A stretch of DNA of 64,000 nucleotides from an uncultured Lachnospiraceae bacterium (GTDB lineage Bacteria > Bacillota > Clostridia > Lachnospirales > Lachnospiraceae): contig CANRLR010000001.1 of the NCBI GenBank assembly GCA_947631505.1, positions 1 through 64,000 of the forward strand, written 5' to 3'. The translations under genes and the position numbers were made by a program. Numbering within the stretch: the first letter of the stretch is position 1; every line of letters begins with the position of its first letter. This document shows, piece after piece, positions 19,073 to 58,613 of the stretch. The notes beneath the pieces were generated by a model, which saw only the letters and a program-made list of their open reading frames with translations, did not search any database and was not told where the DNA came from.

Positions 19073-19092
19073 TAATATGATGTCAGGGGCAA

Positions 19093-19137
19093 AAGGTCAA
19101 CATTGTATGTGCTTGCACGAAAGCAATGTTTGACCTT
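19093..19137 (-). terminator. Long hairpin, probable purE terminator
   Basis: Arms AAGGTCAACATTG (19093-19105) and CAATGTTTGACCTT (19124-19137) pair with one bulge, and a GTGC/GCAC stem lies inside. On the minus strand the stem ends CCTTTTGCCCC, weakly T-rich. Its edge shares the GGGG(T)CAAAAGGT wording with the hairpin at 29167-29194. Confidence 0.55.
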
Positions 19138-19147
19138 ATTGACCCGC

Positions 19148-19204
19148 CAAACATGAGAAAGTAGCCGTTTCTTCCTACGGAAACGCACGGATTTCTAATG
19201 TTTG
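19148..19204. repeat. Nested inverted repeat between dacF and purE
   Basis: Outer arms CAAACAT (19148-19154) and ATGTTTG (19198-19204), a middle AGAAA/TTTCT stem and an inner CGTTTC/GAAACG stem (19166-19185) fold into one hairpin. No T-tract on either strand, so not an obvious terminator. Function unknown. Confidence 0.5.
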
Positions 19205-19223
19205 CAGGATTGTTCCATTGAAA

Positions 19224-19736
19224 CTACATCTGTGCAATATACTCATTATGTCCCAGCTCTGCAAGTTTTTCATCCTTTGCCAAGACACCGTCTTTCATTT
19301 CTTTCTTATAATCCTTTAATTTTACCCGCAGCTCTTTATCCGATACGGAAAGAATTTTTGCTGCAAGAATAGCCGCATTTGCTGCACCGTCAATAGCAAC
19401 CGTTGCCACAGGAATTCCCGATGGCATCTGTACAATCGAATACAAGCTGTCCACACCACCAAGACTTTTCGTATGAATCGGAATACCGATAACCGGTAAA
19501 TCATACAGTGCGGCACACATCCCCGGAAGATGGGCAGCCCCGCCGGCTCCGGCAATGATCACTTCGACTCCACGAGCTTCTGCTCCTGTTGCATAATCTA
19601 CGAAAACATCTGGCATACGATGGGCTGAAATAATCTTCATCTCATACTCAATTCCGAATTTTTCCAGCATATCTGCTGCTTTCTTCATAACAGGAAGGTC
19701 TGAGTCGCTTCCCATCAAAATACCTACTTTGACCAT
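19224..19736 (-). CDS. purE: N5-carboxyaminoimidazole ribonucleotide mutase
   Basis: Class I PurE, de novo purine synthesis. 170 residues; signature GILMGSDSDLPVMKKAAD, SAHRMPD (catalytic His), AGAGGAAHLPGM and SIVQMPSGIPVATVAI. The ATG at 19736 sits 9 bases after GGAGG; the ATG at 19742 is only 3 bases away and less likely. It is the last gene after an HD hydrolase and an M29 peptidase, with no other purine genes nearby. Confidence 0.95.
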   Translation of the reverse strand: MVKVGILMGSDSDLPVMKKAADMLEKFGIEYEMKIISAHRMPDVFVDYATGAEARGVEVIIAGAGGAAHLPGMCAALYDLPVIGIPIHTKSLGGVDSLYSIVQMPSGIPVATVAIDGAANAAILAAKILSVSDKELRVKLKDYKKEMKDGVLAKDEKLAELGHNEYIAQM

Positions 19737-22385: not shown

Positions 22386-22426
22386 AGAAATCCCCTTCTC
22401 TTCCCTGTTTGCTCACAAAAAAAAGA

Positions 22427-22780
22427 AAATGAGCAGCACGATAAGCCGAGTTCTGTCGTTGGGTGAACATCTATCTACGCCTGCTGTTACCAACAGGCTC
22501 CAGCGACCTACCCGGAAACACGACGGGCCGCCGTATCGTTTCCTGTTCGGTCTTGCTCCGAATGGGGTTTACATCTGCCCTCTTTGTTACCAAAGAGACG
22601 GTGAGCTCTTACCTCGCCGTTCCACCCTTACCAGACAAAAATCTGGCGGTTTATTTCTGTTGCACTAGCCTGGGAGTCACCTCCACCGGACGTTATCCGG
22701 CATCCTGCCCTATGGAGCTCGGACTTTCCTCATCCATTCCCTTTCGTCTGAATGGATGCGTTCACCTGTGCTGCTCATTT
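22427..22780 (-). ncRNA. rnpB: RNase P RNA, bacterial class A
   Basis: Catalytic RNA that matures tRNA 5' ends. On the minus strand the conserved 5' block GAGGAAAGTCCGAGCTCC and the 3' block ACAGAACTCGGCTTAT are present. The P1 ends pair over 13 bp (AAATGAGCAGCAC with GTGCTGCTCATTT) and are followed by a T-rich run that should terminate the RNA. It also has the ATAGGGCAGG core and an inner GGTAAGGGTG-type segment. About 354 bases. It fills the gap between the HD hydrolase and the TGS/kinase gene. Confidence 0.95.
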
Positions 22781-49559: not shown

Positions 49560-49640
49560 TATAGGAAAGTTCGGCATTTGCGGAGCAAAGTTTGCTACAG
49601 GCAAACTTTGAGAGCGTCGGTTTTTCACGACGCTTTTTTT
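49560..49640 (+). repeat. Dispersed structured repeat, copy 2, ending in a terminator
   Basis: Plus-strand counterpart of 9165-9244: TATAGGAAAGTTCGGCATTT, a perfect 10-bp hairpin CAAAGTTTGC/GCAAACTTTG (49586-49610, loop TACAG) and an AGCGTCG/CGACGCT terminator with seven T. It lies between converging genes and starts ten bases after an identical terminator stem. Its end touches the degV stop. Confidence 0.75.
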
Positions 49641-50517
49641 ATTTTAATTCCTCTACTACCTTTGATATTGCAATCGCTAATGCTCCCGGACCAATATGGC
49701 AGGAAACACTCAGGGACAATGGATTTACCACAATGTCATGTCCCGGGAATTCCTCTTCTAACTCAGCCCGAAGTTTCATTGCTTCCGTATCATCTGCCGT
49801 ATAGGCAATTTCTACATGGAAATTATCTCCTGCCGGATCATGAAACCGCTCCTCCAAATCTTTTCGAACCGCTCTTAACATCGTTGTCTTTGCCTGTTTT
49901 AATGTTTTCACCTTTGCATAGGCATCCAGTTTTTCACCTTGAATCTGCAGAACAGGTTTAATACGAAGAACCGTACCAATAGCAGCCGCTGCCGCAGTAA
50001 TACGTCCGCCCTTTTTCAAATATGACAGTGTATCTACCATTATATAAATACTGGACTCAAACTTCTCTCTGAGAAGAATTTCCTTTATTTTTGCTCCATC
50101 ATAACCTTTCTCTGCCAGCTGTATGGCATCCAGAACAGACTGTCTCTGTGTAACCGATATTCTCTGATTATCCACAACAAAAACTTTACCTTCAAACTCT
50201 TCTTCATAAGATAACATCATTGCCGTTCCGCAGGCACTGCTAAGCCCACTGGACATCGGAATATAAATGATCTCATCATACTCCTTTAACGTATTATTCC
50301 AAAGCTCCGTCAAGGCCTCTGGACTAGGCTGTGATGTCATAACATCAGCATCCTGTGCCAGATAATCATAGAACTCTGTCTGAGTCATGCTAATATCTTC
50401 AAAAAAAGTTTCTCCATTTACAAAGAAAGGCATTGGTACGACCTGTATTCCCAGTTCTCTTGCCTCATCCTGTGTAATTCCACTGTTACTATCTGTAATA
50501 ATGGCTATTTTACTCAT
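49639..50517 (-). CDS. DegV family fatty-acid-binding protein
   Basis: 292 residues. Family start SKIAIITDSNSGITQDEARELG, then DVMTSQPSPEAL and MSSGLSSACGTA around the fatty-acid carboxylate site. The fold is that of FakB, which presents fatty acids to the FakA kinase. ATG at 50517 after GGAGGTTTTTT. It has its own promoter at 50553-50581. Confidence 0.93.
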   Translation of the reverse strand: MSKIAIITDSNSGITQDEARELGIQVVPMPFFVNGETFFEDISMTQTEFYDYLAQDADVMTSQPSPEALTELWNNTLKEYDEIIYIPMSSGLSSACGTAMMLSYEEEFEGKVFVVDNQRISVTQRQSVLDAIQLAEKGYDGAKIKEILLREKFESSIYIMVDTLSYLKKGGRITAAAAAIGTVLRIKPVLQIQGEKLDAYAKVKTLKQAKTTMLRAVRKDLEERFHDPAGDNFHVEIAYTADDTEAMKLRAELEEEFPGHDIVVNPLSLSVSCHIGPGALAIAISKVVEELK

Positions 50518-50552
50518 AAAAAACCTCCATTCCAAAAACATAAGATTAACAT

Positions 50553-50581
50553 ACTATACTATTTTTTTTCCTATTTGTCAA
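50553..50581 (-). promoter_or_regulatory. degV promoter
   Basis: Minus strand TTGACA (50576-50581), 17 bases, TATAGT (50553-50558). The -35 overlaps the stop codon of the upstream S-component gene. Confidence 0.75.
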
Positions 50582-51257
50582 TGATCCGGTACTTTTTTTG
50601 AATCCGATCCAGCTGTCTTAATAGAGGACGATACAGTAAAAATAGAAAAGCAGCTGTCGAAATTCCAAAAATGATATTAAAGGGAAGCCCCTGTGCAAGA
50701 ACCGCCAGTACAATTGACAAATTTGGTTTCTGTGATGTATAAAAAATCGTATTAATGTCTACAATCCCGCCATACAATACAACGGTTGCCACAAGACCAT
50801 AGACAGCAACCAAATATTTATTGCCGCCTTTTCGAAAGAACACACCTGCCAAATATCCAATTAGCCCTAAAGCAAACATCTGAAACGGCGTCCATGAGCC
50901 TTGTCCAAAATAAAAATTGGAAACAAAAGCACTGACTGCCCCCGTTATAAAACCAACTTCTCTTCCCAAGGCAATTCCGGCAATTATAACAATGGCGGCC
51001 ACTGGCTTTACTTGTGGTAAAAAGAAAAATGCAATTCTCGAAACAATAGCAATTCCACATAAAGCTGCCATAATGGTCAGAAGAGCTACACTTGGTTTTT
51101 CTTTTTCAAACAAAAGAAAAAATCCAACCAAACCGGACAATATAATAGCAAGACTGACCGCATAATAAGCTTCTCCCTTCAATACTCCGATACCATACCA
51201 CAAAATGACTGCCATCCAAACACACAGCCCTATTTCAATCCCTGTTCTTTTCTGCAT
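50571..51257 (-). CDS. ECF transporter S component, putative corrinoid
   Basis: 228 residues with six or seven membrane segments. The central segment KPVAAIVIIAGIALGREVGFITGAVSAFVSNFYFGQGSWTPFQ has the layout of the vitamin ECF S-component family (ECF_trnsprt-like). Substrate cannot be read from motifs; the riboswitch and transcobalamin-like neighbours suggest cobalamin, as for CbrT. ATG at 51257 overlaps the ATPase gene by 23 bases; TTG at 51269 is possible. Confidence 0.8.
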   Translation of the reverse strand: MQKRTGIEIGLCVWMAVILWYGIGVLKGEAYYAVSLAIILSGLVGFFLLFEKEKPSVALLTIMAALCGIAIVSRIAFFFLPQVKPVAAIVIIAGIALGREVGFITGAVSAFVSNFYFGQGSWTPFQMFALGLIGYLAGVFFRKGGNKYLVAVYGLVATVVLYGGIVDINTIFYTSQKPNLSIVLAVLAQGLPFNIIFGISTAAFLFLLYRPLLRQLDRIQKKYRIIDK

Positions 51258-52791
51258 AACACTCAACATCCTCTATCGTAATAATATTCCTTGAGACTTC
51301 TCTGGCAATTCGATTCATACTGGTTGTATAAAATTGATTTTCTACAAAAAAGGTTCTCGCTGCCGACATGACCTTGGTTCTTCCCTGAAACATAAGAGCG
51401 ACATAATCTGCTGTTTCTGCCATAAATTCCATATCATGACTTACAACAACAAACGTTTTACCTGACTTTTTGTAATCAGACAAAAGCTTCCGCAGCTTTT
51501 GTTTGGAAGCAGCATCCAACCCTCTGGTGGGCTCATCTAATAAATAAAGTTCTCTCTCCTCCCCCAAAATAAGCGATAATGCCAGACGCTCCTGTTCTCC
51601 TCCGCTCAAATCCAGCGGATTTTGTTCTTCATACCCCTTCAATCCGAAAAACTGAGCCAGTTCCCCGATTCTTTTCCTGTCTCCGATTTCTTCCTGAACC
51701 GTCTCTCTCAAAAATAAATATTCCGGCTGCTGCGGCAGAACGCCACATCTTTTGGGCATATTCCGAATTTTCCCAAGATAAGGCCGTATATTTCCTGCCA
51801 AAAGCTTCAAAAATGTACTCTTTCCACTTCCATTTCCTCCCGCTATAAAGGTAATTGCTCCCTTCGGAATACGAATGGAACAATCATGTAAGACATCCGG
51901 TTCTTTTTTCTCATAACGGAAAAATAATTTTTTGCATATAATCTTATCTTCACTTATTTCACATTTTTCTTCTAGTTCTGCCTGCTGTTTCTCTTTATAA
52001 TTCTCACAGAACCATATACGTGCTTCCTTTTTGGAAAGTAAATGACTCAGTCCTTCGCTCTCTCCCTCGAACAGTCGAAAATAAGATGGAAAAAAGGACA
52101 AAAAAGTATCCCCCGAATTCATCCTTCTGCACATGGCATAGACTTCATATGGTTTTCCCTGTGCCTTTAGCTTTCCCTTTTCCATGTAAAACATTGCATC
52201 CGCATATAAAATCAAATCCTCTAACCGCTGTTCTGCCACAATAATAGTAATGCCAAGTTCCTCATTGATCTGATGTAATAATTCATATAATCTTCTAGCC
52301 GCCACCGGATCTAACTGACTGGCAGGCTCATCCAACAGAAGAATCTCAGGATTCATCGCCACTGTGGAAGCAATATTGAGTATTTGCATCTCCCCTCCGC
52401 TTAATGACATAGTATCCTTTTTTAATAAATCCTCCATCCCGAAAAACGTAACCATTTCCGCCAAGCGTCTCGACATCCGGTCTTTTGACATTCCTATATT
52501 CTCAAGTCCGAAAACAATCTCATATTCCACCCGGTCCGTCACGATCTGATTCTCCGGGTTCTGCCATACATATCCTTTCCGTAATGCATGACAGAGCATA
52601 GTTCCGTTTTTTTCTCCTGCCCGCTCCTTATCCCCAAAAATCTGTCGCAGCAATGTTGTTTTCCCACAGCCGGATGGCCCTGTCAAGAGAGAAAAAGAAC
52701 CTTTCTGAACAGAAAAATCATTTATTTGAATGGCTGGCTCTGTCTGTCCCGGATAAAAATACCGGAAATCCTTCGCTTGGACAATATCCAT
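51235..52791 (-). CDS. Fused double ECF ATPase (EcfA1-EcfA2 in one chain)
   Basis: 518 residues with two complete ABC domains. First: GPSGCGKTT, LSGGEMQ, LLLDEPASQLDP, with the clear start FRYFYPGQTEPAIQ. Second: GGNGSGKST, LSGGEQERLALS, LYLLDEPTRGLDA and VVVSHDMEFM. Group II ECF transporters use dedicated ATPases next to their S and T genes, and fused forms occur. ATG at 52791 follows AAAGGAGGAACTCTT; it overlaps the end of the EcfT gene by 70 bases in another frame. Confidence 0.92.
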   Translation of the reverse strand: MDIVQAKDFRYFYPGQTEPAIQINDFSVQKGSFSLLTGPSGCGKTTLLRQIFGDKERAGEKNGTMLCHALRKGYVWQNPENQIVTDRVEYEIVFGLENIGMSKDRMSRRLAEMVTFFGMEDLLKKDTMSLSGGEMQILNIASTVAMNPEILLLDEPASQLDPVAARRLYELLHQINEELGITIIVAEQRLEDLILYADAMFYMEKGKLKAQGKPYEVYAMCRRMNSGDTFLSFFPSYFRLFEGESEGLSHLLSKKEARIWFCENYKEKQQAELEEKCEISEDKIICKKLFFRYEKKEPDVLHDCSIRIPKGAITFIAGGNGSGKSTFLKLLAGNIRPYLGKIRNMPKRCGVLPQQPEYLFLRETVQEEIGDRKRIGELAQFFGLKGYEEQNPLDLSGGEQERLALSLILGEERELYLLDEPTRGLDAASKQKLRKLLSDYKKSGKTFVVVSHDMEFMAETADYVALMFQGRTKVMSAARTFFVENQFYTTSMNRIAREVSRNIITIEDVECYAEKNRD

Positions 52792-53591
52792 AAGAGTTCC
52801 TCCTTTCCCCACATCCACAGTGGCATACCATAATACAGCCCGGCCAACAATACCTCTCCGGCAGATGGTTTCTCTATATGAAGAGAGGGAAAAAATCGGA
52901 CCGGTCTATTCTCCGTAAAAGAAACCAAACAAATACCCGCAAATAAGATTAGTATTAACAGAAGCAGAATCCTATCTTCTGTTTGAAATTTTTTATCATA
53001 ATATGAACTTCTGTCCTTCATGCCATAATAACGGTCTTTCATCGCAATGCTTCTCTCCATGGAATGCTCCAGCTCCATCCTGATCAGACTGGAAATTGCC
53101 AGCCATTTGTTTCCATGGATAGATGACATTTCACGAAAATCTTTTGCCGCCTTTGGTACAAGCCTCAGTACCATTGAAAAAAGCAAAGAAAATGCCGGCA
53201 GTCTCTTTCCCGTTAAAGTCATAATTTTCTCTGCCGTCATGCCCCTGCTGAAGCAGGCAAATAAAAGAAGAGACGCCATAAGGATACCTGCCATATGAAT
53301 TCCGTAAACCAAGGCTTCTAAAGTAAATCTCGTATCCATAATCTCAAAAAGGAGGGTTCTCCCTCTATGATTAAATAAGGGATTCAATATAATACAAAAA
53401 AAGGCAGTCAGAGCACTTGCCCCGACCATTTTCATCCCCTTTGTCACTCCCATAAATGTAAAATATGTGCCTAATCCCATACAAAAAATAATAAGGTCTA
53501 TTATGGGATGCCCCAGCCAGATCATAATGACAACGGCCAAAATATAATACAATAGAATAAGCAGGGGATGGCACCTGAAAAAACCACTCAT
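52722..53591 (-). CDS. ECF transporter T component
   Basis: 289 residues, five or six membrane segments, with the coupling region of the CbiQ/EcfT family (RGMTAEKIMTL, LLFSMVLRLVPKAAKDF, ERSIAMKDRYYGMKDRSSY, where the usual Ala-Arg-Gly motif is modified). It links the ATPase to the S component. ATG at 53591 after GGAGATACGC. It lies 15 bases after the DUF4430 gene. Confidence 0.88.
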   Translation of the reverse strand: MSGFFRCHPLLILLYYILAVVIMIWLGHPIIDLIIFCMGLGTYFTFMGVTKGMKMVGASALTAFFCIILNPLFNHRGRTLLFEIMDTRFTLEALVYGIHMAGILMASLLLFACFSRGMTAEKIMTLTGKRLPAFSLLFSMVLRLVPKAAKDFREMSSIHGNKWLAISSLIRMELEHSMERSIAMKDRYYGMKDRSSYYDKKFQTEDRILLLLILILFAGICLVSFTENRPVRFFPSLHIEKPSAGEVLLAGLYYGMPLWMWGKEELLWILSKRRISGIFIRDRQSQPFK

Positions 53592-53606
53592 GCGTATCTC
53601 CTTTAT

Positions 53607-54431
53607 CTAATACTGATAATCATAAAAAAACCGAATGTTATCTTCTGTTCTTACTTTATAATTACTCGCCCCCACTCCCGGTATTATTTCCTTAACAGCA
53701 TATTTCCAGCCACTTTCCCCACCGCAGTCAAATTCATACAGATTTCCGATTCCTTTGATATAATAGGTACCATATAATGGTGTATATTGGCTGTCTAGGG
53801 GAATACCGTTTTCTTTGCAGATTTTTTTCAACAAATCATATACCGTTTCACCTTCCGTAAAAGAAACGACTCCTTTATAAAAAATACCATTCGATGGAAT
53901 AATTTCCTCGATTCCCTCTTTCCATAACTCCCTTTGTGATAAGATATTGATACAATCAATTTGAAAAGAGACCTGCAGGGGGTTCTGTTTCTTTTCCTCT
54001 TTCCCGGTTTCCTCTTGGGATAAATCCGGGGTAACCGTCGGTTTTGCTGTTGCTGTATTATGTTCCTCTGCTTTTTCTGTATTTTTTTTCTTTGTCTGTC
54101 CCGATTGTTTTTTATCTGTATTTTTCTGATTCGTCTTTGTCTGCTCCTGCTCCGAATTTTTCCCCTGTTTTCTGCTTTTTTCAGAAATGTTCTTCTCCTG
54201 CTTTTTCGACTTTATTTCTTCTGTTTTTGTATCATGATCGGGAACTGCTTCTCCTGTCTTATTCTCCTGTATAAAACTTCCGGTAACAGAAGGCTGGATA
54301 ATGTTTTCTTCGATTCCCTTCTGGGTCATATTTTCTTCCTTTGGCATTTGCCATCCCTTACCAATCAGAAAAGCGGCCAGAATAAAAAAGAAAGCACTAC
54401 AGATTACAATATATTTTCGATTCCATTTCAT
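53607..54431 (-). CDS. Membrane-anchored DUF4430 (transcobalamin-C-like) protein
   Basis: 274 residues. Signal-anchor (WNRKYIVICSAFFFILAAFLIG), a charged K/E/T/Q linker of about 120 residues that could span the cell wall, then a DUF4430 domain (about 165-274): VSFTEGETVYDLLKKICKENG, LYGTYYIKGIGNLYEFDCG and ESGWKYAV. This fold corresponds to the C-terminal cobalamin-binding domain of transcobalamin and intrinsic factor. ATG at 54431 after GGGGATTTTTAT. First gene of the DUF4430-EcfT-EcfA-EcfS operon, so it may hand the ligand to the ECF importer. Ligand inferred. Confidence 0.85.
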   Translation of the reverse strand: MKWNRKYIVICSAFFFILAAFLIGKGWQMPKEENMTQKGIEENIIQPSVTGSFIQENKTGEAVPDHDTKTEEIKSKKQEKNISEKSRKQGKNSEQEQTKTNQKNTDKKQSGQTKKKNTEKAEEHNTATAKPTVTPDLSQEETGKEEKKQNPLQVSFQIDCINILSQRELWKEGIEEIIPSNGIFYKGVVSFTEGETVYDLLKKICKENGIPLDSQYTPLYGTYYIKGIGNLYEFDCGGESGWKYAVKEIIPGVGASNYKVRTEDNIRFFYDYQY

Positions 54432-54530
54432 ATAAAAATCCCCATTCCAAAGTGCCACAAATCGTGTCACAGCATTTCATTCACTTTACACTTTAACAAA
54501 GTTCCCTCTTTATTACAAGCAATTTTTTGA

Positions 54531-54559
54531 TAGACAAACCTTGGCAGCATTGCTATAAT
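54531..54559 (+). promoter_or_regulatory. Promoter of the B12 riboswitch transcript
   Basis: TAGACA (54531-54536), 17 bases, TATAAT (54554-54559) with an extended TGC before the -10. Transcript start is expected near 54566. Confidence 0.75.
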
Positions 54560-54574
54560 GAGTTCGGATGGTAT

Positions 54575-54775
54575 CAAACTGGCAATCTGCCAGTAATGAA
54601 TAACATAGTTGCCATAATGGTTTTCGCAAGAAATTAATAGGGAAGGCGGTGTGAGTCCGCCACAGCCCCCGCTGCCGTATTAGGGGATATGGACAAAGAG
54701 ATACCACTGGCATATGCTGGGAAGGTTTTGTCCGTAGATGATTCTTAAGTCGGAAGACCTGCCTTATGGTGTGAA
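54575..54775 (+). promoter_or_regulatory. Cobalamin riboswitch (class I)
   Basis: Conserved elements in order: GGGAAGGCGGTGTGAGTCCG, the B12-box-type CCACAGCCCCCGCTGCCG, CCACTGG, GCTGGGAAGG and AGTCGGAAGACCTGCC. A small accessory hairpin CTGGC/GCCAG (54579-54593) lies at the 5' side. Binding of adenosylcobalamin should favour the terminator at 54831-54874 and switch off the genes from 54939 on. Confidence 0.95.
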
Positions 54776-54830
54776 ATGTGACCTTTCGGAGGGAGAGGAA
54801 ATGTTTTGACTGAATTCATAGTCATCACAG

Positions 54831-54874
54831 GTCCTGCTATGCCCTTTTTTGGGAAATATCAGGACTTTTCTTTT
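54831..54874 (+). terminator. Riboswitch-controlled intrinsic terminator
   Basis: GTCCTG (54831-54836) pairs with CAGGAC (54860-54865), an inner CCC/GGG pairs, and TTTTCTTTT follows. An upstream GACCT (54780-54784) could pair with AGGTC (54829-54833) as antiterminator. Confidence 0.75.
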
Positions 54875-54938
54875 GTTATCGCATTATAATTAATACCACA
54901 AAATATAATACGCGATACGCGAGAAAGAAGGTTTTCTT

Positions 54939-56216
54939 ATGAAACAATCAAAGAAACTGTTTTCCTTGCTGATGACTCTTGTTCTGGCATTGTCCCTGAC
55001 AAGCGGCTTCTCAGCAAAGGCGGCAGACACACAGACGAACAATCTCACCGTGACACTACGGGTAGAACAGGATGCTGCTACGCTTCTACCACCAGTTAAA
55101 ATCACGCTGACAGAAGCAGACAAAAAGGATTACGGAATCGGTCTGTCAACCGAAACTCTGACACCGCTCCATGCACTTGCAAAATATCTTCAAACGGAAA
55201 AAAAAGTCAGCGATGAAAACATGTCAGATTATATCTCTCAGAATAATGGCTGGATTACTTCCATCAAGGTAAATGAAAGTGATAACGGAACTCCGAGCAG
55301 TATGAATCAGACGGATACCTCTTGGATGTTCGCCGTGAATGACAAAAGCAATCTTGTGAACGAGAAAGCATCCGAAGGAAGCGATTACGCAATTCATTAT
55401 ACTTCCTATGATTATCCATTGACAAATAATGATTCCATTTTGTTCTATGGTATATGGTGGGGTGTTTACGGAAAAATTGATGCCTACTATTCTGCATTTG
55501 ATAAAGAACAGTACAATGCAGCAACAAATCAGGAGGTTAATATTTCCTTGAAACAGACCGGAATTTATGATACAACGAACACCTTTGGTGCCAGTGCAGA
55601 TTCTATCGTTATTGCGTCCAAAAATGGTATTCCTGTTCCGACAGAATATGACCTGAAAGGCGTCACTGACAAAAATGGTAATGTTACATTAAAGTTCCCA
55701 TCCGCCGGAACTTATACGTTATCTGCCTACCGCGAAATCAGCGTAGAAAATGATGACAGTACAACCACTGAACATTATGACATTTCCCGTCCTTATTCGG
55801 TTGTGACCGTAACAGAGGAACAACTGGCAACACCTCCTCAAAAAAATGATACAACCGTTACCAATTCAAAAAACAAACCAGCGTCGGGTATTACCGTGAA
55901 AAAACCAGCAAAAGTAAAAAAATTAAAAGCCACGGTAAAAAAATCAAAAAAGACAAAAAAAACAGTAAAACTTACTTGGAAAAAAGCGGCGAATGCCAAA
56001 GGATATCAGGTCTATGTATTAAAAAAAGCGAAAAAGGGAACAGCAAAAAAAGGTCTCAAAAGTTCCTACAAGAAAAAGGCAACCGTGAAAAAGAATAAAG
56101 CTGCCATTAAGCTGAAAAAGGGAACGTACAAAATAAAGGTACGTGCCTACAACAAATCCGGCAGCAAAACAAAAAACGGTTCCTTTAGTAAGGTAATTAC
56201 GGTAAAAGTAAAATAA
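54939..56216 (+). CDS. Secreted DUF4430 protein with Ig-like and cationic FnIII-like domains
   Basis: 425 residues. Signal peptide ending FSAKAAD (about 30). A DUF4430/transcobalamin-like domain (about 35-175) has LTPLHALAKYLQTEKK, NGWITSIKVNES, TSWMFAVNDK and DSILFYGIWWGVY. A beta-sandwich of the SpaA or Ig type (GVTDKNGNVTLKFPSAGTYT, about 190-285) follows. The last domain is lysine-rich and FnIII-like (TVKLTWKKAANAKGYQVY) and may bind anionic wall polymers, as there is no LPXTG motif. ATG at 54939 seven bases after GAAGG. It is the first gene under the B12 riboswitch and a candidate corrinoid scavenger. Confidence 0.85.
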   Translation: MKQSKKLFSLLMTLVLALSLTSGFSAKAADTQTNNLTVTLRVEQDAATLLPPVKITLTEADKKDYGIGLSTETLTPLHALAKYLQTEKKVSDENMSDYISQNNGWITSIKVNESDNGTPSSMNQTDTSWMFAVNDKSNLVNEKASEGSDYAIHYTSYDYPLTNNDSILFYGIWWGVYGKIDAYYSAFDKEQYNAATNQEVNISLKQTGIYDTTNTFGASADSIVIASKNGIPVPTEYDLKGVTDKNGNVTLKFPSAGTYTLSAYREISVENDDSTTTEHYDISRPYSVVTVTEEQLATPPQKNDTTVTNSKNKPASGITVKKPAKVKKLKATVKKSKKTKKTVKLTWKKAANAKGYQVYVLKKAKKGTAKKGLKSSYKKKATVKKNKAAIKLKKGTYKIKVRAYNKSGSKTKNGSFSKVITVKVK

Positions 56217-56240
56217 TCGAAACGATGGAGGAAGGATACC

Positions 56241-57878
56241 ATGAGACAGATATTTAAAAAATTAATGCTATTTCTATTAACGGTATCCACTGGTTTGATG
56301 TTCTGTTCTTTTTCCGCAGCATCTGTGGTGCAAACACAAACACCAATTCAAACAGCAAAGGGCGGGACTATTTGGACCCGCTCTTTCTCCACCAGTGGAA
56401 TTTCCTACAATTCCGTTCCTGTTGTAACCGAATCAACCATTTATCTGGTAAACGAAAATACACTTTTTGAGATGGATTTAAACGGAACTATACTTCGCAG
56501 GCTCACTTTGACGAAAAGTATGAACTCAGCCTGTCATATGATTTTAGAGGGCAAAAAACTATATATCCCGCTTTCTGGCGGCATAATGCAGTGCGTAGAT
56601 ACAGAGACCCTCTCCTCTCTTTGGATTAGCGAAGCTTTTGGAGGACAGTCCCTATCGAAAGTAATTTATCATAATGGATATCTGTATGCAGGTACTACAA
56701 CAATGATTGACAGTTCTTCTACAAAGGGGCTCTTTTTTTGCTTAGACTCCGAAAACGGGAAAACGAAATGGAGCTATGCGGATTATGAAAATCCCGGTGG
56801 TTATTATTGGAGCGGTGCTGTTGTGATAAAGGACCGACTCTATTTCACTGGTGATAATGGCAGGCTTGTTTGCCATAGTCTGCTGACCGATGAATTATAT
56901 CATACATGGACGCTTACACAATCTGCCAAAATTCGGACCGGCATTCTCTGTGATTCCAATACAGACACATTATATACAGCCTCTAATGATGGGATGCTGT
57001 ACCGGATTATTCTTAATGAACAAGGGGCCCCCGAAAAAATTGAAACTCTGAATTTACATCCGGACGCAGTCTCAAAAAACTGCACCTCCACTCCTGCCAT
57101 ATACAATGACAGGCTTTATATCGGCTCGATAGCAGATGGCTACGGAACTCTTTCCGTTATTGATTTAAAATCCTTTACACTTCTATATTCTGTCCGTGGC
57201 AATAAAGCAGCAGAAATCAAATCCACACCTCTCATCAGCACCGGATATGCAACGGAAGAAAATCATAACAAAGTATATATCTATGTTACCTATAATGCTC
57301 CGCCCGGAGGTATTTACTATTTAGAGGATGATGAAAACTCGGCTGCCGGAACAATGAAAACCTTGTACACCCCTTACACAGCAAAACAATTTTGTCTGTC
57401 CAGCATTGTCAGCGGTGCAGACGGCACCTTGTATTATTCCAATGATAGTGGTACACTATTTGCAGTACAAGAAGTAGATACCAGCTCTGACCGTACTGCG
57501 ATATCGACGGTGTCTCCGGCTTCGACGACTTATGAACCGAATGAACGTCCAATTCCTGTTAAAAAAGCAAAAATAGTAACACCAAAGAAACCAACGAAAA
57601 TAAAGGTGAAAGTAAAAAAAGCAGGAAAAACAAAAAAAGGAAGGAAAAAAAAGAAATATACCGTCACTTGGAAAAAGAATTCCAAAAAAAGCCAGACATT
57701 ACTTTATATAAAGCAGGGTTCTGGTTCATGGAAAAAACATGTAATAAAGACAAAAAACAAATATTCGTTTACCAGTACAAAGAAAAAAATATGGATTCGT
57801 TTTCGCAGCAGAAACAAACAGAACCGACAATGGATTTACTCTTCTTATACAAAAACAAAAAAAATCACACTAAAATAG
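56241..57878 (+). CDS. Secreted PQQ-type beta-propeller with cationic C-terminal domain
   Basis: 545 residues. Signal peptide (about 1-28). Residues 40-420 are PQQ-like propeller blades: TIYLVNENTLFEMDLNGTIL, KLYIPLSGGIMQCVDTETL, GLFFCLDSENGKTKWSY, RLYFTGDNGRLVCHSL, TLYTASNDGMLYRI, RLYIGSIADGYGTLSVIDL and TLYYSNDSGTLFAVQ, about seven in all. The C-terminal 100 residues are lysine-rich and FnIII-like, echoing the upstream protein. ATG after GGAGGAAGGATACC. Under B12 control, a seven-bladed exported propeller recalls BtuG of Bacteroides, though no homology is claimed. Confidence 0.85.
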   Translation: MRQIFKKLMLFLLTVSTGLMFCSFSAASVVQTQTPIQTAKGGTIWTRSFSTSGISYNSVPVVTESTIYLVNENTLFEMDLNGTILRRLTLTKSMNSACHMILEGKKLYIPLSGGIMQCVDTETLSSLWISEAFGGQSLSKVIYHNGYLYAGTTTMIDSSSTKGLFFCLDSENGKTKWSYADYENPGGYYWSGAVVIKDRLYFTGDNGRLVCHSLLTDELYHTWTLTQSAKIRTGILCDSNTDTLYTASNDGMLYRIILNEQGAPEKIETLNLHPDAVSKNCTSTPAIYNDRLYIGSIADGYGTLSVIDLKSFTLLYSVRGNKAAEIKSTPLISTGYATEENHNKVYIYVTYNAPPGGIYYLEDDENSAAGTMKTLYTPYTAKQFCLSSIVSGADGTLYYSNDSGTLFAVQEVDTSSDRTAISTVSPASTTYEPNERPIPVKKAKIVTPKKPTKIKVKVKKAGKTKKGRKKKKYTVTWKKNSKKSQTLLYIKQGSGSWKKHVIKTKNKYSFTSTKKKIWIRFRSRNKQNRQWIYSSYTKTKKITLK

Positions 57879-57887
57879 GAGGTCACT

Positions 57888-58613
57888 ATGGAACAAAAAG
57901 AACAGTTAAAGCAATTCAAGCAGTGGATTGAAGAAAGTAATAATATTGTATTTTTTGGCGGTGCCGGTGTTTCTACCGAAAGTAACATACCAGACTTTAG
58001 AAGTGTAGATGGCTTGTATAATCAAGAATATGATTATCCACCGGAAACCATTTTATCCCACACCTTCTTCATGCAGAATCCAGAAGAATTTTACCGTTTT
58101 TACTGGAATAAGATGATTTTTGAAGAAGCAGAACCAAACAATGCCCATCTTGCCCTCGCCAATTGGGAACGGCAGGGGAAATTAAAAGCAGTAATTACGC
58201 AAAATATTGACGGACTTCACCAAAAAGCCGGCAGTAAAGAAGTATTAGAATTGCATGGTTCCGTACTTCGCAACAACTGTATGCACTGTCACAAATTCTA
58301 TTCTTTGTCCGATATTTCCCCCAAAAACGGTATTCCAAAATGTGAATGCGGGGGAACGATCAAACCGGATGTGGTTCTTTATGAAGAGGGATTAGATACT
58401 TATACCTTGGAAAAATCGGTGTCTTATATAAGCAATGCAGATATGCTTATTATCGGTGGAACTTCTCTTGCTGTATATCCGGCCGCCGGCCTGATTGACT
58501 ACTACCGTGGCAATAAGCTGGTACTGATCAATAAGGACAAAACCAGCCGGGATACAAAGGCGAATCTTGTCCTCCATCTGCCGATCGGAGAGGTACTCTC
58601 GCCTTGGGCCTGA
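57888..58613 (+). CDS. cobB: NAD-dependent protein deacylase, sirtuin
   Basis: Removes acetyl or other acyl groups from lysines using NAD. 241 residues. FFGGAGVSTESNIPDFRSVDG, TQNIDGLHQKAG (catalytic Asn, Asp) and LHGS (His); zinc cysteines in CMHCHKF and CECGG, then IIGGTSLAVYPAA. ATG at 57888, nine bases after the propeller stop with AGGAGGTCACT, so it is very probably on the riboswitch transcript. In Salmonella, CobB was first found because it can compensate for CobT in cobalamin synthesis; whether that matters here is unknown. Confidence 0.94.
   Translation: MEQKEQLKQFKQWIEESNNIVFFGGAGVSTESNIPDFRSVDGLYNQEYDYPPETILSHTFFMQNPEEFYRFYWNKMIFEEAEPNNAHLALANWERQGKLKAVITQNIDGLHQKAGSKEVLELHGSVLRNNCMHCHKFYSLSDISPKNGIPKCECGGTIKPDVVLYEEGLDTYTLEKSVSYISNADMLIIGGTSLAVYPAAGLIDYYRGNKLVLINKDKTSRDTKANLVLHLPIGEVLSPWA

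Follow-up and report, generated by a model that had tools for sequence, protein, structure and literature searches.

A putative corrinoid capture-and-import locus combining a cobalamin riboswitch, DUF4430 proteins, a propeller and a CbrT-like importer in a Gram-positive bacterium

Organization of the locus

The window analysed here is a 64,000-nucleotide stretch (positions 1 to 64,000 of contig CANRLR010000001.1) from an uncultured Lachnospiraceae bacterium, whose 2.74 Mb genome is designated G000; other G and L numbers denote the genomes and loci compared with it. Open reading frames and an RNA family scan of the window reveal two divergent gene groups on either side of one cobalamin riboswitch (50571-57878). 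Judged from sequence, this arrangement very probably serves corrinoid capture and import in a Gram-positive bacterium apparently unable to make the corrin ring. Its parts include an energy-coupling factor (ECF) importer and three exported proteins:

50571-51269, minus strand: ECF S component, CbrT-like (Pfam PF07155, E 6.2e-11; PF12822, E 2.1e-7; best PDB match CbrT)
51235-52818, minus strand: fused double ECF ATPase (two ABC_tran stretches)
52722-53591, minus strand: EcfT-like transmembrane coupling protein (family profile against solved EcfT, E 1.5e-16)
53607-54470, minus strand: membrane-anchored DUF4430 protein (DUF4430, E 7.8e-13, residues 207-283)
54531-54559, plus strand: promoter-like site ahead of the riboswitch, matching the consensus at 11 of 12 positions
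54600-54780, plus strand: cobalamin riboswitch aptamer (RF00174, 107.5 bits)
54830-54875, plus strand: terminator-like hairpin with a U-rich run after it, lying between the aptamer and the gene of the secreted DUF4430-type protein (predicted fold)
54939-56216, plus strand: secreted protein with a signal-peptide-like start, a diverged DUF4430 domain, an immunoglobulin-like (Ig-like) domain and a polycationic C-terminal domain
56241-57878, plus strand: secreted propeller of the PQQ/BamB type whose C-terminal domain is polycationic (PQQ_2, E 3.4e-11)

The genes and the riboswitch had been named in an original prediction made from the DNA letters, and Pfam and RNA family scans, together with profile comparisons, find them where it had placed them.

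Three sets of loci serve for comparison. Within the genus, 36 genomes were searched, a close secreted-protein homologue being one with E 8e-21 or better, and the 18 homologue loci plus the window make up the 19 genus loci. The family sample comprises 150 genomes from 149 genera, in which a close S homologue is defined by E<1e-10; its other-genus loci (L082-L114, n=33) include some that are cut short. The named loci are the best 80 for the S query, 47 of which are roomy, their left side extending for 5.5 kb or more.

Cobalamin riboswitch and its control elements

The riboswitch matches the full RF00174 model (1-189) far above its cut-off of 31.5 bits (E 5.9e-26 in the 64-kb scan), and it is the one cobalamin riboswitch detected in a genome-wide scan of G000. 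It lies ahead of the secreted DUF4430 protein and the propeller on the same strand, in agreement with the arrangement first proposed. The promoter-like site was assigned by consensus matching alone, with three such sites in 701 bases against 1.6 expected. Downstream of the aptamer, the fold of 54780-54925 contains the terminator-like hairpin, the z score of -4.73 referring to the whole stretch, and a scan for the terminator consensus picked 54782-54798 and not the hairpin at 54830-54875.

CbrT-like ECF importer

The S component scores above the thresholds of both PF07155 and PF12822, two families of ECF S components, and its best match among PDB sequences is 6fnp_A (CbrT), with E 2.3e-9 over residues 56-226. 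Two hydrophobic N-terminal stretches, seen by hydropathy, precede this CbrT-aligned part. When the S family profile is compared with solved structures, CbrT ranks first (E 4e-22, 82 bits) and RibU follows with 25 bits. The T protein of the window matches no Pfam family when searched alone; within its family, six of 11 members match CbiQ, the window's own not being among the six. The double ATPase scores 262.9 bits against ECF_ATPase_1, below the cut-off of 315. Family profiles and the ABC_tran stretches thus bear out that the genes divergent from the riboswitch encode an EcfT, two ATPase domains in one fused protein, and an S component, so that the EcfT and the two ATPase domains of a CbrT-type importer are present. 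The context of this importer is B12-dependent, with a riboswitch inside the locus here and upstream of the ECF operon in other genera.

Related importers vary in composition. Two EcfT-like genes lie near one S gene in L091, L092, L097 and L190. The S component and the double ATPase share one open frame in 52 of the 80 named and nine of the 33 family loci (for example L118), and such frames reach 1,151 residues, the shortest ones being cut by contig ends. In L159, L171 and L188, a gene for a small Cys-containing protein stands between EcfT and the ATPase-S fusion (L159:6077-6607, L171:7550-8086, L188:3819-4367), and a DUF4430 protein is undetected at these three loci; the small protein presumably resembles DUF2284.

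DUF4430 proteins and propeller

The tethered protein carries its DUF4430 domain behind a single hydrophobic stretch at residues 21-39, by Pfam and hydropathy respectively, and inspection by eye suggests that the ATG at 54431, giving 274 residues, is the more likely start. The secreted protein has no Pfam DUF4430 match of its own. Its profile nevertheless aligns to that of the tethered protein (hhalign 99.1%, E 1.5e-18, 110 columns), and two homologues from the genus match Pfam DUF4430 with E 1.1e-6 and 1.5e-6. The tethered protein therefore belongs to DUF4430 (PF14478) by its Pfam match, and the secreted one by profile relation and homologues. DUF4430 is described as the C-terminal domain of TCN proteins in the accessible part of one source (PMC4350170).

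Both secreted proteins finish in a Lys/Arg-rich, almost acid-free domain; in the DUF4430 protein, the last 105 residues hold 41 Lys or Arg and no Asp or Glu. Because of these polycationic ends, the description of the two as soluble binders in the original prediction is doubtful. The cationic domain itself is a general module, and many matches in searches with the secreted protein span that domain alone.

An AlphaFold model of residues 28-305 of the secreted protein reaches a predicted local distance difference test score (pLDDT) of 78.4 and shows an Ig-like fold at model residues 154-268. In the structure search with this model, transcobalamin and intrinsic factor are absent among the matches listed; the likeness of the DUF4430 part to the transcobalamin fold was not really probed, because the Ig-like domain filled the match lists. 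The model of a fused homologue (L116; pLDDT 72.7, predicted template modelling score 0.50) leaves the domain orientation too uncertain. By sequence against the PDB, neither DUF4430 protein retrieves anything beyond noise: barnase-like matches at E 0.35 or higher for the secreted one, and p300, SEC9 and others for the tethered one.

For the propeller, recognized by PQQ_2, the 50 matches listed by each of two structure search programs are BamB, YxaL and other propellers. In L067, L095, L102 and L104, a secreted-DUF4430-type part and a propeller are fused as one protein, with Pfam DUF4430 undetected in the L102 and L104 fusions.

Conservation in the genus and the family

The conservation of the system exceeds chance by far. 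DUF4430 occurs in all 34 family genomes with a close S homologue, versus 38 of the 116 others (hypergeometric p 7e-14, kinship ignored), and lies within 5 kb in 32 of 35 close S loci; in the remaining three (G149, G168, G099) it is on another contig. At the looser limit of E 0.001, 57 of the 150 genomes have a match to S, and 48 of these carry DUF4430.

The co-occurrence of DUF4430 and ECF genes under B12 riboswitches, to be expected if the prediction were right, was sought and found. In 51 genomes, picked for S or secreted-protein homologues irrespective of riboswitches, 61 riboswitches were found; 34 of them lie less than 10 kb from a listed DUF4430, versus 0.53 expected by random placement, and 25 of these 34 are upstream on the same strand. 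Among the other-genus family loci, 14 of 33 hold a riboswitch in the fetched stretch, and in each of the 14 it stands upstream of the ECF genes on the same strand, L097 having an additional one in the opposite orientation. The gap from riboswitch to first scored operon gene contains no frame of 100 residues or more in 11 of the 14 loci; the gaps of L084, L094 and L107 hold same-strand frames, overlapped in L084 and L107 by opposite ones. In L102 and L104, a single riboswitch-led run comprises the DUF4430-type/propeller fusion, the tethered DUF4430 protein and the S, T and A genes. T and A genes are present in all 47 roomy named loci and the tethered DUF4430 protein in 42. The three nearest named loci, among the best 80, come from metagenome-assembled genomes of Clostridia and Lachnospiraceae.

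Within the genus, 18 of the 36 genomes contain a close secreted-protein homologue. The propeller is found in 17 genus loci; in the other two, L073 and L078, the contig stops on that side. A riboswitch faces the secreted pair in 12 of the 19. In G006, G014, G024, G034 and G036, a riboswitch lies, instead or also, about 3.8 kb before a DUF4430 domain elsewhere, and this second-site protein has some 1,330-1,450 residues in five genus genomes. Such second sites stand behind a short cobalamin riboswitch at L202:2564-6547, L203:366-4457 and L204:2319-6656, with DUF4430 proteins of 1,327-1,445 residues.

A reduced version of the system consists of a DUF4430 mini-protein of about 130-200 residues directly before the S gene, in L209-L219 (L211:4800-5807, L212:2808-3726), with no EcfT match within the fetched stretches of these loci. 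Twelve weak S matches, 11 of which were fetched, have DUF4430 within 124 bp, and a riboswitch adjoins at least five of the 12.

The span originally proposed, 50571-58613, contains all these system parts, and its far end takes in a sirtuin gene (57888-58613, after the propeller) that falls outside the conserved system. In some relatives a kilobase-sized gap separates sirtuin and propeller. On the other side, a DegV gene (49639-50541) follows the S gene. Both neighbours are kept mainly inside the genus, DegV also standing beside S in a few other loci, and with conservation mainly at genus level they were not counted as members of the system. Elsewhere the window also holds a Clostridiales-1 small RNA (19078-19231, plus strand) and an RNase P RNA (22426-22777, minus strand).

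Toroid partner of DUF4430

The full transcobalamin architecture is not seen in G000, where the alpha/alpha toroid partner of DUF4430, the fold that makes up the remaining half of the animal protein, is undetected. With an iterated profile, a toroid is found beside or near the tethered DUF4430 gene in 23 of the 33 other-genus family loci and 48 of the 80 named loci (38 of the 47 roomy ones), and in none of the 19 genus loci. Genome-wide, profile A4 finds none in G000 or 17 of 18 genus relatives, a search that a diverged toroid could escape, and gives a partial match in G001 (E 1.8e-5). The same profile detects toroids in G087, G162 and G130, and none in the fusion-bearing G096 and G204 or in G109 and G125. 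Eight exported toroid proteins of relatives were scanned: those of L154 (E 6.5e-5) and L163 (E 5.8e-4) match Pfam Cobalamin_bind, a eukaryotic family, both under its cut-off, and five of the eight carry S-layer anchors. Against the PDB, the toroid profile retrieves squalene cyclases and others, with no animal B12 carrier among the 26 matches listed.

The 19 genus genomes with the secreted protein, and likewise G096 and G204, pair or fuse a secreted DUF4430-type part with a propeller, the toroid being undetected in them apart from the partial match in G001; in the genus, the secreted part has a cationic domain at its end. This pattern allows the tentative suggestion, on balance a doubtful one, that in a corrinoid clamp resembling transcobalamin the propeller replaces the toroid as the partner of DUF4430. 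By the same speculative account, which we consider unlikely, propeller and DUF4430 domain might hold the corrinoid between them, and the importer would receive it by way of its tethered DUF4430 protein. That propeller and toroid strictly exclude each other is ruled out by L095, L100, L110 and the named locus L180, which have both. Six family loci outside the genus give strong propeller matches, with a toroid in L095, L100 and L110 and none in L102, L104 and L109; neither element is seen in seven of the 33 family loci, some of them cut short. Moreover, lack of the toroid is not confined to lineages with a propeller, because G109 and G125 are also without it, and replacement by a propeller is accordingly a possibility rather than a rule.

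B12 physiology of the genome

CbiD is found neither in G000 nor in 18 other genomes of the genus (0 of 19, several of them less than 90% complete), and is present in three of four genomes of other genera. CobA/BtuR is present in G000 and in 17 of the 19 genus genomes. G000 also encodes a protein with a B12-binding domain and a GDIHDIGKN motif, called MetH-like on the strength of its motifs. G000 therefore appears unable to make the corrin ring, and from the lack of CbiD combined with CobA/BtuR and the MetH-like protein it follows that the bacterium should depend on imported corrinoid.

Discussion

The interpretation of the locus as a system for capturing and importing corrinoids, as originally proposed, is supported because four lines of evidence converge: the CbrT match of the S component, the riboswitch-led ECF operons of other genera, the proximity counts, and a genome in which CobA/BtuR and a MetH-like protein are encoded and CbiD is not found. 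From the observed gene content, homology, conservation and riboswitch association, a route can be proposed in which corrinoid binding, surface location and hand-over are predicted steps. At low internal B12, the riboswitch would permit expression of the two secreted proteins, as suggested by the aptamer together with the elements that resemble a promoter and a terminator. Both proteins would leave the cell, probably being retained at the wall through their cationic C-terminal domains. Homology and gene order are consistent with the secreted proteins binding corrinoids outside the membrane and passing them to the tethered DUF4430 protein, which would load the CbrT-like S component, with the dedicated EcfT and fused ATPase powering uptake. 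Inside, the MetH-like protein may use the imported cobamide, and CobA/BtuR may make the adenosyl form.

Several observations weigh against this interpretation, and some of them favour other accounts. The riboswitch of the window is oriented toward the secreted pair only, away from the ECF genes on the opposite strand, and no second riboswitch facing the ECF operon is found in the window or in L074. Additionally, the stronger Pfam match of the S component carries a riboflavin name (E 6.2e-11), and an NCBIfam match to FolT lies below its cut-off. An importer of another vitamin, such as riboflavin or folate, standing by chance next to a B12-regulated secreted pair, would fit these points; it is nevertheless very improbable, given that CbrT leads RibU by 57 bits and that the riboswitch precedes the ECF genes on the same strand in 14 of 14 riboswitch-bearing loci of other genera. 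The BamB/YxaL-like propeller is a fold with many roles, the cationic domain is a general module, and accessory domains, the fused propeller included, are read as possible tethers in the accessible part of Burroughs et al. 2007 (PMC1796856). The secreted pair could accordingly be wall-structure or protein-protein scaffolds that bind no corrinoid and whose expression tracks B12 need, an account that seems improbable when 12 of 19 genus loci have the pair behind a B12 riboswitch and four loci fuse a DUF4430-type part to a propeller.

Further points on the same side concern distribution and homology. No close homologue of the secreted protein is found in the other 18 of the 36 same-genus genomes, and the pair lacks a detected riboswitch in seven of the 19 genus loci, one of them contig-cut. 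Of the 93 family genomes that show no match to S, 24 still have a DUF4430 gene. The tethered DUF4430 protein is not seen in five of the 47 roomy named loci, and the DUF4430 profile retrieves no solved transcobalamin or intrinsic factor, nor anything convincing, from the PDB. A second importer, for example BtuFCD, might also meet the corrinoid requirement. As to the substrate, the importer may take cobinamide, other corrinoid precursors or particular cobamides and not complete B12, a minority prospect that still deserves some weight: CbrT takes cobalamin and cobinamide, in the portion available of PMC5997447, and gut strains may salvage alternative vitamers, in that of PMC6593275. Nothing decisive speaks against it: G000 lacks CbiD, and completing cobinamide would call for nucleotide-loop genes.

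The corrinoid capture-and-import reading is not a new idea, since the present locus instantiates a B12-scavenging prediction made in 2007 for this domain clade. In its accessible part, Burroughs et al. 2007 (PMC1796856) places the clade in Gram-positives, with export, toroid and propeller fusions, operons with CbiO-/CbiQ-like genes and a second extracellular paralogue, and predicts B12 scavenging where key B12 biosynthesis enzymes are usually missing. The locus shares with these transcobalamin-like SLBB proteins of low-GC Gram-positives the clade, export, the CbiO/CbiQ operons, the paralogue, the propeller fusion and the prediction; it differs in its CbrT-type S component and riboswitch, both unmentioned in that part of the account, and in that the toroid partner is not found here. 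What is added here comprises an S component of the CbrT type, the linkage to riboswitches and its counts, the conservation counts, the cationic C-terminal domains, the reduced version of DUF4430 plus S, and the pattern of propeller with toroid absent. In the literature covered, which lay outside most subscription journals, we found no experimental test of the predicted B12 scavenging and no description of the locus; likewise, no paper listed for DUF4430 is, judged by its listing, about a bacterial B12 importer.

The function of CbrT was shown in 2018, as the available text of PMC5997447 has it, and ECF-CbrT of Lactobacillus delbrueckii (PDB 6FNP) shares with the present importer the S family by profile, EcfT and two ATPase domains. 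By the same text, CbrT of L. delbrueckii sits in an nrdJ-cbrS-cbrT-pduO cluster, unlike here. In the present locus the module genes adjoin the S gene, the ATPases are fused, extra hydrophobic N-terminal stretches are present and DUF4430 proteins are exported. A further comparison is offered by CbrUVT, in which we take U and V to be the module genes. This B12 transporter of gut-genome reconstructions is apparently of the same dedicated ECF kind, a likeness by description only, and no exported binder is named for it in the accessible part of PMC6593275.

Animal transcobalamin and intrinsic factor share the DUF4430 domain, and relatives of the window also encode the alpha/alpha toroid; in contrast, no toroid is detected in G000, and there is no direct sequence match to solved carriers. 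A BtuB system is not expected in a cell with a single membrane. The Bacteroides proteins BtuG, itself a propeller, and BtuH are, in the available parts of PMC8941943 and PMC6977713, surface B12 binders beside riboswitch-bearing transport loci, and a Firmicute BtuH homologue is placed there near a predicted ECF-like transporter. The present propeller, of the PQQ/BamB kind, is set beside BtuG by description. Collectively, the locus would join riboswitches for B12, importers of the CbrT type and the transcobalamin relatives of bacteria in one conserved and testable unit.

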